Below are positions 8,393-12,403 of a stretch of 36,859 bases of DNA, one piece after another. Location: positions 1-36,859 of the forward strand of contig JAJYTS010000004.1 in assembly GCA_021792935.1 (NCBI GenBank), read 5' to 3'. Source of the stretch: Bacillota bacterium (GTDB taxonomy: Bacteria; Bacillota; Sulfobacillia; Sulfobacillales; Sulfobacillaceae). The position numbers and the translations under genes are program-made. Each line of letters opens with the position of its first letter. Within the stretch, counting starts at the first letter, position 1. The notes under the pieces were generated by a model, which was not told where the DNA came from, made no database searches, and saw only the letters and a list, made by a program, of their open reading frames with translations.

Positions 8393-10393
8393 TTACTCTC
8401 CCCGCAAGGCTTCTACCGGTTTTAAACGAGCCGCGTGGTTGGCCGGAATCGCGCCGGCCACAGCTGCCACTCCACCGCCGAAGACTAATCCCACTAACAC
8501 AAGCCACAAAGGGACAAGAAAGAGGCCGGGCTGATGGAAAATCTGGCTTCCCAACTGCCCCAGTCCCCAGCCTACCGCGACCCCAAGGATGCCGCCGATC
8601 AGGCCAACAATAATGGCTTCGGCCAAAAAGAGGATGAAGATGTCACGGCGTCGAGCTCCCAGTGCGCGCCAAATGCCGATTTCCCGCCTTCGCTCCAAGA
8701 CCGCCATACTCATCACCACGGCGATCATGAGGCCCGCTACCGCTAAAGCAATTCCTCCCACGATGCCCAGACCGGTCTCGAAGATTCCAAATTCATGGTT
8801 AATCTGATGGATGACTGAGCCGGTGGTAGTCACGCCGTAGCCGCGATGGCGAATCCGCGAAGCCACCGAGGACACCTGGTTAATTCCCGTTGCCACCACC
8901 ATGGCACTGGCGTATTGAATGGGCTGGTGAGGACCCGCGAGTGAGGAGAGCCATTGGGATGCCAGGTGGGAATTGACGTAACCGCTGGCCCCAAGGCTGG
9001 TGGACACCACCCCGCGCACCACGACCGATATTGCTCCTTTGGCGGAGGCCGATGAGGAAATACCCGTCACGCCAAGAACTTCCCCGAGCTTAATCCGCAG
9101 GTGGCGGCCCACAGCTAGGGCTAGCCCGTGTGGCCCATGCAAACCAAATAAGGATAGCGCTGTTTTTCGGGGAAGCAGAATTCCCGCGCTTTGGCGTGTG
9201 GGCATATGGCCGGCGAGCAAGTGGGGGTGGGGCAGGTTCGCGATGCCAGAAGGCGGCAAGCTAGTTGCCACCATTGTTGTGTAACGACTGCCGGACTGAG
9301 CGGTAAGCAAAAACTCGCTCGACCCATAGGCGGCGCGGACATGCGGCAACTGGCTAAATGACTGAAGAGTGGCATTGGTAATCGGGTGCTGAGGCCCGGT
9401 GGTTAGGGCGGAACCAAGGCCTAAAGATGACGTTCGAGCGGAGGGGCTCACTGTCATCATCGTCAATGACGCGTTGGCGGAGAGAGCATTGACCACTTTG
9501 GACTGCAGGCCGGCGCCGATGGAAATGAGCAGCACCATGCTGGCGACTCCGACCATCACACCCAAGCTAGTCAAAATGCCGCGGGTGCGGCGCCGGCTCA
9601 AGGACTTCAGCGACTCTGCCACCAGCGTGGACATCCGAGGACCTCGAACCGGAGAGCTTTTGTGGGGGTCCGATTTTTGGGTTGGCTCGGAAATGGGACG
9701 AGAGTCCTCCACAATGCGTCCGTCGCGGATGCGCAGTACCCGATCGGCCAAGACGGCATATTCCGGGTTATGCGATACCACAATGACGGTACGGCCGTCC
9801 TCGTGCGCCAGGGCTTGCAGCTGGCGCATGATTTGCATTCCGCTTTCACTATCTAAATTGCCGGTTGGTTCATCCGCCAAAATAACTGGCGCGTCATGCG
9901 CCAGTGCCCGCGCGATAGCGACGCGCTGAATTTGCCCCCCGGATAGTTGGGCGGGGGTATGTCGGGCTCGTGGGCCCAGACCTAGCCCGTCCAACAGCTC
10001 TCGGGCACGACGGCTTTGTGCCCTGCGGCTTTGCCCGTCCAATAACAATGGTAGTGCCACGTTGTCCTCCGCCGTTGAACCGGGCAGAAGGTAGAAATTT
10101 TGAAAGACAAATCCAATGGTGCGCCGACGCCATTGAGCGAGGCGAGCCGCGCTGAGTGCCGTGACATCCATGTCTTCCGCCAATATCTGGCCTTGAGTGG
10201 GGCGATCCATTCCTCCCAGCAACTGCAGCAGGGTTGATTTGCCGCCTCCCGAAGGGCCTAAAACCAAGGTCATCTGCCCCGGGGCAAAGGTGGCCGAGCA
10301 CTCGCGCAGGGCTTCAATAGCCTCCTGACCGCGTTGATAGGTTTTGGATACGCCGCGCAGTTCAAGAAAGATGCCTCGTGGAGATTCGGTCAT
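8393..10393 (-). CDS. MacB-type ABC exporter, fused ATPase and permease
   Basis: A 666-residue protein, about the length of MacB. Residues 1-235 are the ABC ATPase: Walker A GPSGGGKS (46-53), Q-loop Gln98 in FVFQNFYLLPG, signature LSGGQ (150-154), Walker B VILADEPTGNLD (170-181) and His208 in VVSHN. From about 253 comes the permease: first membrane helix in ILTSLGVMVGVASMVLLISI, a ~200-residue extracellular domain rich in Ser and Gly, then three helices with the FtsX-type ERRREIGIWRALGARRRDIF. ATG 10393 follows GGGGGAG; the frame extends upstream without motifs. MacB-like transporters move peptides, antibiotics or lipids by mechanotransmission. No MacA partner is seen. It is 8 bp behind a small membrane-protein gene in the same operon. 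Confidence 0.92.
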   Translation of the reverse strand: MTESPRGIFLELRGVSKTYQRGQEAIEALRECSATFAPGQMTLVLGPSGGGKSTLLQLLGGMDRPTQGQILAEDMDVTALSAARLAQWRRRTIGFVFQNFYLLPGSTAEDNVALPLLLDGQSRRAQSRRARELLDGLGLGPRARHTPAQLSGGQIQRVAIARALAHDAPVILADEPTGNLDSESGMQIMRQLQALAHEDGRTVIVVSHNPEYAVLADRVLRIRDGRIVEDSRPISEPTQKSDPHKSSPVRGPRMSTLVAESLKSLSRRRTRGILTSLGVMVGVASMVLLISIGAGLQSKVVNALSANASLTMMTVSPSARTSSLGLGSALTTGPQHPITNATLQSFSQLPHVRAAYGSSEFLLTAQSGSRYTTMVATSLPPSGIANLPHPHLLAGHMPTRQSAGILLPRKTALSLFGLHGPHGLALAVGRHLRIKLGEVLGVTGISSSASAKGAISVVVRGVVSTSLGASGYVNSHLASQWLSSLAGPHQPIQYASAMVVATGINQVSSVASRIRHRGYGVTTTGSVIHQINHEFGIFETGLGIVGGIALAVAGLMIAVVMSMAVLERRREIGIWRALGARRRDIFILFLAEAIIVGLIGGILGVAVGWGLGQLGSQIFHQPGLFLVPLWLVLVGLVFGGGVAAVAGAIPANHAARLKPVEALRGE

Positions 10394-10401
10394 GGCTCCC
10401 C

Positions 10402-10875
10402 CTACACGTCGGCGGGAGCCGATGGGTTTTTGGTGGTGAGTCCCCCGATGGCACCGACGATAAGGCCCATGATAACCCCTACGCCGGCACTGGCGGCCCA
10501 GGATGCGATGTGGGCGGCTGGCGAATTGGCGGCTTTGAGCAGCGTGCCAATGGCAAGGGTGGGATTGACGTGCCGAGCGTGCAGACTTGCGAGCAATTGC
10601 GCCCGCGTCAGATGAATTAATAGCGATGGCCATCCAGAAACGATACCGTAGATAAGGCCCGCGATGGCGCCTACGCCGACCGGCCGCGCGCCCTGCTGCT
10701 TGGCGGCGCGACCTGCGAATAATAGAATCCCCAGCACGATCACATCTAATATAATGGACACGACGATGGGCATGCCCACGCGGTGGCCGCCGATAAGAAA
10801 CTTGATGAGGGCAGCGATGACACCCCAGACTAAGGTGATGAGATAGATGCGGTTGACTTTTGTCACGATTTTCAT
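10402..10875 (-). CDS. Small four-helix membrane protein upstream of the ABC exporter
   Basis: A 157-residue protein with four hydrophobic segments (IYLITLVWGVIAALIKFLIG, VVSIILDVIVLGILLFAG, VGAIAGLIYGIVSGWPSLLI, ASAGVGVIMGLIVGAIGGL) and almost no soluble part except a loop HLTRAQLLASLHARHVNP. No family is recognised. Glycine-rich helices suggest an oligomer or accessory subunit. AGAGG abuts the ATG at 10875, so GTG 10866, nine bases further in, may be the true start. Only 8 bp separate it from the MacB-like gene, so the products probably act together. Transcription would begin at the minus-strand promoter at 10992-11020. Confidence 0.7.
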   Translation of the reverse strand: MKIVTKVNRIYLITLVWGVIAALIKFLIGGHRVGMPIVVSIILDVIVLGILLFAGRAAKQQGARPVGVGAIAGLIYGIVSGWPSLLIHLTRAQLLASLHARHVNPTLAIGTLLKAANSPAAHIASWAASAGVGVIMGLIVGAIGGLTTKNPSAPADV

Positions 10876-10938
10876 CCTCTCGTGGTGGTAATTATCGTTA
10901 AACCCGATAATTCCTGGAAAGTACTGTGAACTGTTAAT

Positions 10939-10958
10939 TGATATCACCATGATATCAC
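10939..10958. repeat. Direct repeat of a TGATATCA palindrome
   Basis: TGATATCAC occurs at 10939-10947 and again at 10950-10958, 11 bp apart, one DNA turn. Each copy contains the perfect 8-bp palindrome TGATATCA. It lies in the leader of the ABC exporter operon, between promoter and start codon, so it may be a second operator. Confidence 0.4.
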
Positions 10959-10991
10959 ATCGTAGGAAAGACAATATAATTTCTATTTGTA

Positions 10992-11020
10992 CTAATACAA
11001 TTAAATTGATGGGTCGTCAA
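10992..11020 (-). promoter_or_regulatory. Minus-strand promoter of the ABC exporter operon
   Basis: On the minus strand TTGACG (11020-11015), a 17-bp spacer, then TATTAG (10997-10992) inside the left 22-bp arm. It faces the small membrane-protein gene starting at 10875. Confidence 0.65.
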
Positions 11021-11067
11021 CCGTCTGTGGCACTATGAGGATGGTGGTATATGGTTAAAAAGGGTTA

Positions 11068-11096
11068 TTGACATTCTCACTCTAAGATTGTATTAG
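11068..11096 (+). promoter_or_regulatory. Plus-strand promoter, mirror of the ABC operon promoter
   Basis: TTGACA (11068-11073), a 17-bp spacer, then TATTAG (11091-11096) inside the right 22-bp arm. It has the same -10 and spacer length as the minus-strand promoter. The first gene downstream is the hydrolase at 11408, giving a leader of about 300 bases, long enough to hide a small RNA or peptide gene. Confidence 0.6.
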
Positions 11097-11212
11097 TACA
11101 AATAGAAAATGGATGTAAAGCAGCCTGACTAACCGCAGCAAATGAGTTTTGTGGCGAAAGATCGCAGGCAAATAGCAGGAGGCCGAGGCCTTCTCCTCGT
11201 ATCACATTGTTC

Positions 11213-11407: not shown

Positions 11408-12403
11408 ATGAGTGAAAATGGCTACGGCGAGAGCTATGACCTGCAGTGGGAAATCGGAACGACCATGGTTTACGCGACATTCGCCAAACCTCGGGGCGTC
11501 GGGCCTTTTCCCGTCGTCGTCATGGCGGCGGGAAGCGGGCCCACCGATCGGGATTGGACGTCGCCCTTGTTGCCCGGCAGTAATGGCAGTGCTCGCCTGC
11601 TTGCGGATGCGCTGGCGCAAGCCGGGATTGCTTCGCTGCGCTATGACAAGCGGGCGTCAGGAGCGCATGCGATGGAAAATATGAAAGCGCTTGTAGGACG
11701 CCTTAGTATGCAGTCGCATGTGGACGAGTTCACCGGGGCCGTGGATACGCTGGTCGCTCGTCCGGACATTGACTCTGGCCGCATCTTCGGACTGGGCAAT
11801 AGCGAAGGGACTCTTCACGTGCTCAATTACCACCTGAGCAACCCTTCGGCGCCGCTTGCCGGGCTTGTACTGACCGGTGTCCCCGGTCGGGCGGTAGGTC
11901 CGGTGGCACGCTCCCAATTGGCGGCGCAGGCGGCCTTGATACCTAATGGAGAGGCCCTCTTGGCGCTATACGACCAAGCCATCGAACGGTTCTTGAGAGG
12001 CGAACCGGCGGCACCGGCATCTGAACTACCTGATGGGGTGAAGGATCTGTTCCGGTCTTTAGAGGCGCCCGCTAATCAACCCTTTTCCCGGGAACTATGG
12101 ATAGCTGACGGAGCCAGTCTTCTTGCTAACGTGGATAGTCCGGTATTAGTCATCATTGGTAAAAAAGATATTCAGGTGGATTGGCGGTTGGATGGCGAAC
12201 TGTTGCAGAAGGCGGCGCAGGGTAAGAGTGGCGTGACATTTTTCTACCCCGACGATGCCAATCATATCTTAAAGTATGAGGCTAAGAATCGTGAGGAATT
12301 GACGGCATCTGAAGTGGTGCCGCTATACAACGAGGATGGCCGCGTTCTTGATTCTTCTACCGTGGATGCCATTGTCACCTGGCTGCATGACCATGGGGCC
12401 TAG
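11408..12403 (+). CDS. Alpha/beta hydrolase (serine esterase/acyl-transfer type)
   Basis: A 331-residue alpha/beta hydrolase. FPVVVMAAGSGPTDRDW (35-50) holds the oxyanion loop; GLGNSEGT (128-135) is the nucleophile elbow with Ser132. The acid is probably the Asp in VLVIIGKKDIQVDWR (near 258), and DDANHILK carries the catalytic His. The residues between 160 and 235 form a helical cap. The overall look is that of the dipeptidyl aminopeptidase/acylaminoacyl peptidase-like hydrolases; the substrate is unknown. There is no signal peptide, so it is cytoplasmic. ATG 11408 follows GGAAAGGTGAG. It is the first gene downstream of the mirrored promoter at 11068-11096, which suggests shared control with the ABC exporter. 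Confidence 0.85.
   Translation: MSENGYGESYDLQWEIGTTMVYATFAKPRGVGPFPVVVMAAGSGPTDRDWTSPLLPGSNGSARLLADALAQAGIASLRYDKRASGAHAMENMKALVGRLSMQSHVDEFTGAVDTLVARPDIDSGRIFGLGNSEGTLHVLNYHLSNPSAPLAGLVLTGVPGRAVGPVARSQLAAQAALIPNGEALLALYDQAIERFLRGEPAAPASELPDGVKDLFRSLEAPANQPFSRELWIADGASLLANVDSPVLVIIGKKDIQVDWRLDGELLQKAAQGKSGVTFFYPDDANHILKYEAKNREELTASEVVPLYNEDGRVLDSSTVDAIVTWLHDHGA

Follow-up and report, generated by a model that had tools for sequence, protein, structure and literature searches.

The intergenic region between a membrane-protein/MacB-like exporter operon and an alpha/beta hydrolase gene is probably a divergon, in which a candidate YtrA-type operator lies over each of two -10 elements and both transcription units are controlled in trans. 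This reading was reached from the sequence and from comparison with other genomes, and it concerns a short segment of the window, by which we mean the whole 36.9-kb stretch of DNA that was analysed; the features are collected in Table 1. Two sigma-A-type promoters would face away from each other, each with its -10 inside one 22-bp operator with the core TTGTAYTARTACAA. The proposed repressor is a YtrA-type dimer whose gene lies elsewhere. Bound to both arms, it would cover the DNA from the -10 to about +10, blocking RNA polymerase at both -10s and so shutting off the left membrane-protein/MacB-like exporter operon and the right alpha/beta hydrolase. An inducing signal would free both transcription units at once; in Bacillus subtilis the inducing signal is inhibition of cell-wall synthesis. 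The make-up of the sequence, its mirrored geometry and the link between the dyad and YtrA-type genes in relatives were observed; we infer the binding, the repression, the transcription starts, the signal and a place for the regulator gene in the unassembled part of the genome.

Table 1. Coordinates of the predicted features in the window
Feature	Position	Strand	Remarks
Left arm, candidate YtrA-type operator on the leftward -10	10980..11001	-	reads ATTGTATTAGTACAAATAGAAA on the - strand
Right arm, identical candidate YtrA-type operator on the rightward -10	11087..11108	+	ATTGTATTAGTACAAATAGAAA read outward
Core dyad of the left operator, 14 bp	10987..11000	.	TTGTACTAATACAA on +
Core dyad of the right operator, 14 bp	11088..11101	.	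TTGTATTAGTACAA on +
-35 of the leftward promoter, TTGACG (5/6)	11015..11020	-	sequence match
-10 of the leftward promoter, TATTAG (4/6)	10992..10997	-	17 bp from the -35
-35 of the rightward promoter, TTGACA (6/6)	11068..11073	+	sequence match
-10 of the rightward promoter, TATTAG (4/6)	11091..11096	+	17 bp from the -35
Leftward gene 1, 154-aa membrane protein	10402..10866	-	GTG start proposed, ribosome site GAGAGGATG; no Pfam family
Leftward gene 2, 666-aa MacB-like ABC exporter	8393..10393	-	ABC_tran + MacB_PCD + FtsX
Rightward gene, 331-aa alpha/beta hydrolase	11408..12403	+	orthologue (59%) closes the YtrA operon of same-genus G002

The preliminary description of this DNA had claimed exact reverse-complement 22-bp arms at 10980-11108, with a TTGTA/TACAA dyad inside each and a TATTAG separated by 17 bp from an outward-facing TTGAC(A/G), and all of this was confirmed by the coordinates. 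The arms are 100% complementary over 22 nt with a spacer of 85 nt, and form the sole perfect inverted repeat among the 12 reported for the window; the inner dyad is present in both as the 14-bp TTGTAYTARTACAA. Outside the arms the flanks are unlike apart from the -35s, with 10/30 identical positions on the inner side and 5/30 on the outer. As an A/T-rich palindrome that has the conserved GT...AC pairs, TTGTAYTARTACAA has the properties of a YtrA-type operator according to the consensus drawn from the YtrA survey (PMC4494728, cited here for its statements on that subfamily).

A simple promoter scan of the window listed neither promoter, because TATTAG matches the -10 at 4/6 positions and ends in G, while the scan demands a final T. 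TATTAG is a weak -10, and the promoters therefore rest on their geometry and on comparison with relatives. The geometry was assessed by holding the arms fixed and shuffling the 85-bp spacer with dinucleotides preserved: a match to TTGACA of at least 5/6 positions at 16-18 bp from TATTAG arose on both sides in 8 of 20,000 shuffles, and in 46 of 5,000 when the -10 could be any hexamer of the arm that matched at 4/6 or more positions.

Invertons are built as a promoter flanked by inverted repeats, and the arms could be taken for the borders of an invertible switch in which a recombinase flips the 85 bp and so swaps the strong TTGACA and the weaker TTGACG -35 between the two operons. The genome does have four resolvase-type matches, but none of the four is on this contig, a flip would leave both promoters intact, and the arms are already explained as operators; we consider such a switch the least credible of the explanations weighed here.

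The preliminary description also suggested a genome search for further arms, and the arms proving to be ends of a repeated mobile element would have told against regulation. The search was run in the own assembly (2.02 Mb, about 60% complete) allowing up to three mismatches, and found the two copies in the window and no others in that part of the genome, so that the objection was not borne out. The arms are therefore not a dispersed mobile element there, and such an element is unlikely in general, about 40% of the genome being unseen. The related proposal, that the 129-bp segment is a small non-autonomous MITE-like element with 22-bp terminal inverted repeats, would account for the perfect repeats, for a GC content of 33% in the segment against 56% for the window, for its absence from relatives and for a possible AAT duplication that appears after trimming one base off each end. 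It is nevertheless very improbable. Several genomic copies are expected of a MITE, and the about 60% complete genome holds one; neither the arms nor any DNA resembling the intergenic region was found in 40 relatives, the arms had no match in plasmids, phages or viral contigs, and in a collection of 84,980 species genomes the only arm pair was the window copy. The repeats moreover coincide with -10 boxes 17 bp from -35s on both sides, and single arms elsewhere serve as candidate operators.

The divergon reading draws its assignment to a regulator family from those single sites. Perfect copies of TTGTAYTARTACAA were found in three of 154 genomes of the class: the own genome (two sites), G002 of the same genus (one) and G018 of the same family (one). 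The dyad is not over-represented in the class, as a reversed control pattern was found in 7/154 genomes; its locations are what is informative. In G002 and G018, 15-17 bp separate the end of the dyad from the start codon of a YtrA-type GntR gene, which encodes 121-124 aa comprising a GntR domain and a short C-terminal part. The genes that follow the regulator in both are an ABC ATPase, a permease and YbjQ. The last gene of the G002 operon is the orthologue (59% identical) of the window hydrolase, and that of the G018 operon is another alpha/beta hydrolase, 29% identical to the one in G002.

When close orthologues of the regulator were compared, the dyad was present upstream of 4/4 (G002, G018, G024 and G047), twice perfectly and twice with one mismatch, the latter being TTGTACTAGAACAA at the same place in G024 and G047. 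The regulators of this group are 60-63% identical to that of G002 (63% for G024 and G047). The G024 and G047 operons have YbjQ and no hydrolase was found in them, the G047 contig ending soon after YbjQ. These orthologous operons of the family, together with an ABC-YtrA operon of a Clostridia MAG, support the earlier guess of a YtrA-like GntR regulator, as the dyad lies directly upstream of the YtrA-type genes. Small dyads are common to several families and this genome has no cis-linked regulator, and the mirrored promoters and operators could accordingly be real while a regulator of another family (MarR, TetR, PadR etc.) uses the TTGTA-TACAA dyad. This is unlikely, as the perfect dyads in the other 153 class genomes are all at YtrA-type genes (2/2) and hydrolase orthology ties the window to a YtrA operon.

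Two other genomes of the same genus carry fragments next to the hydrolase orthologue: only part of the permease lies ahead of it in G005 (L071, G005:C22), and only part of YbjQ in G006 (L072, G006:C63). The YtrA operon in these two looks as if it is decaying around the hydrolase. Hydrolase orthologues in the other genomes looked at are without these operon genes.

The position of the operator relative to the promoter was compared in eight promoters. In both window promoters and in G002 the operator starts 14 bp after the -35 in the geometry TTGAC(A/G/T)-17-TATTAG (TTGACT in G002), and its place and orientation in G002 are the same as in the two window promoters. The promoters of G018, G024 and G047 read TTGACA-17-TA(T/A/C)ATT and place the operator at 21 bp; those of two Clostridia read TTGACA-17-TATATT/TATAAT and place it at 22 bp. 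In all eight the operator either overlaps the -10 or comes straight after it, as expected of a repressor.

The Clostridia sites were recovered with the 18-mer TTGTATTAGTACAAATAG, which has five exact matches in the 84,980 species genomes, where we estimate about seven by chance from length alone. Two of the five mark promoters in Clostridia MAGs (L062 and L064), each ahead of an ABC operon. In L064 the site is followed by a gene for a 117-aa YtrA-type GntR protein, and the L062 stretch ends inside the permease. We left the other three out of the supporting evidence: two lie in coding-looking sequence of Bacteroidota and one precedes a Comamonas gene. At L062 and L064 the site runs TTGTATTAGTACAAATAGTACAA, that is TTGTATTA-N7-TAGTACAA, a long YtrA-type form. 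The window arm agrees with TTGTATTAGTACAAATAGTACAA through ATAG and then reads AAA; on our reading, the 22 bp therefore correspond to one whole operator. The window arms hold the 14-bp form, and the further half-site TAGTACAA of the two Clostridia is degenerate in the window, so that judged by its letters the arm looks like a long YtrA-type site whose third half-site is degenerate.

YtrA-type loci of the class were then surveyed for the 14-bp form with at most one mismatch or the 23-bp form with at most two, within 170 bp upstream. An operator of this type was present at 19 of 43 loci, and 0 of 203 control stretches taken from these loci had one; the motif was not seen at the remaining 24/43. 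A second YtrA-type group (L088-L099, L116, L119 and L120) has long upstream operators of the form GTGTACTA-N7-TAGTACAC, and there are thus two operator lengths (14 and 23 bp) within one class. The dyads were also sought by literal text search in published papers; the matches listed look like chance by title (primers, probes and other sequence), and include no GntR operator.

As the preliminary description had it, no regulator gene is adjacent: none of the 36 window ORFs scanned has a DNA-binding family. The usual YtrA arrangement, with the regulator in the same operon or beside the site, is not found here, and is not needed for a second target. Neither a regulator nor a permease of the G002 type was found in the own assembly (about 60% complete), and the cognate regulator may be encoded in the missing 40% of the genome. 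The assembly does have two YtrA-type genes on other contigs (C35 and C103), which are 37% identical to that of G002, and both were considered as the regulator of the arms. Ahead of the C35 operon a palindrome, GTGCATTATATTACTAGTGCAC, stands a short way past a TTGACG (L082:4976-5000, G000:C35); it differs from the arm in having GTGCA half-sites and resembles a YtrA-like operator with changed half-sites. No site of this type was found in the vicinity of C103. As the C35 site is different and C103 has none nearby, neither is the obvious partner and both were rejected.

The two sides of the proposed divergon do not carry equal weight. Judged from sequence features, the right side is the stronger case, with a consensus -35 and a hydrolase tied to the G002 YtrA operon. 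The MacB-like ABC operon belongs to the left side by position, and what speaks for that side is its mirrored geometry alone, because the orthologues of the operon are without the site: the dyad was not found with up to two mismatches at any of 29 relatives' loci (L007-L035). Homologues of the 154-aa membrane protein are present in 26/34 family genomes, the own included. The intergenic regions upstream of the orthologues of both operons showed no similarity beyond one 20-base match at chance level. A second dyad (window 10938-10956), of the form TGATATCA-CCA-TGATATCA, lies past the predicted start in the leftward leader and may be a further regulator site.

The rightward leader would be long, at about 300 nt, which counts against the divergon reading. 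An RNA element was considered and rejected, since an Rfam search of the window gave no match and the fold of the rightward leader is no better than those of its shuffles (z -0.37). Elsewhere in the window, an open frame at 2091-3050 matches IS66 transposase weakly and over a short length (59 aa) and is probably a remnant.

A history can be proposed that starts from an autoregulated ytrA-ABC-permease-ybjQ-hydrolase operon. The regulator and transporter genes would have disappeared from this lineage and the operator and hydrolase been kept, and an inverted copy of the operator and promoter would have recruited the neighbouring MacB-like exporter, giving a trans-controlled YtrA divergon. This is put forward tentatively, as possible rather than probable. 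Remnants of the lost operon were sought between the right arm and the hydrolase and gave chance-level matches only, so the operon loss is something we infer.

The proposed trans-controlled divergon may be set beside the YtrA regulators already described, which are described as local, with mostly one operon, one site and the regulator in cis. In the survey of Suvorova et al. (2015), as far as its statements on this subfamily go, most YtrA regulons comprise a single ABC operon served by a single site, a divergent arrangement is very uncommon and sites are almost never found between divergent operons (PMC4494728), so the window divergon would be unusual. Like the surveyed operators, the candidate ones in the window have GT/AC half-sites in an A/T-rich setting at a promoter, and the targets predicted here, as in the survey, include membrane proteins and an ABC transporter (PMC4494728, from the same statements). 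The relatives of this genome have the regulator gene directly after this operator. Unlike the surveyed cases, two sites lie in a divergon here with no regulator gene beside them, and the core dyad is a compact 14 bp whereas the surveyed YtrA site has 23-24 bp (PMC4494728, again as given for YtrA). Divergons with double sites are described in that survey for the FadR and HutC regulators of the GntR family, which share with the window two operators between divergent operons; those are other subfamilies with sites of other length (PMC4494728, from its remarks on these two). A mirrored pair of sites with no regulator gene would show a local switch extended to a second operon.

A 14-bp core is also known from the YtrA of Sulfolobus acidocaldarius, where a semi-palindromic core over the transcription start is accompanied by additional half-sites and the regulator acts as a repressor both of its own operon and of another locus for membrane proteins (PMC6746942, in its account of these sites). 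The likeness drawn here is one of core length and layout, and that system differs in being archaeal and in having sites that are not described as a divergon in the portion of that paper cited here (PMC6746942). In B. subtilis, YtrA has two target operons: the ABC operon ytrGABCDEF, which includes the small membrane protein YtrG, and ywoBCD, which includes a hydrolase (PMC12772383, as outlined there). In the window, too, an ABC operon with a small membrane protein would be joined to a hydrolase, the hydrolases being likened by description, and B. subtilis differs in having two separate loci and the regulator in cis (PMC12772383, same outline). The divergon reading predicts that the exporter and the hydrolase act together, much as the YtrA of B. 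subtilis pairs an ABC operon with a hydrolase operon.
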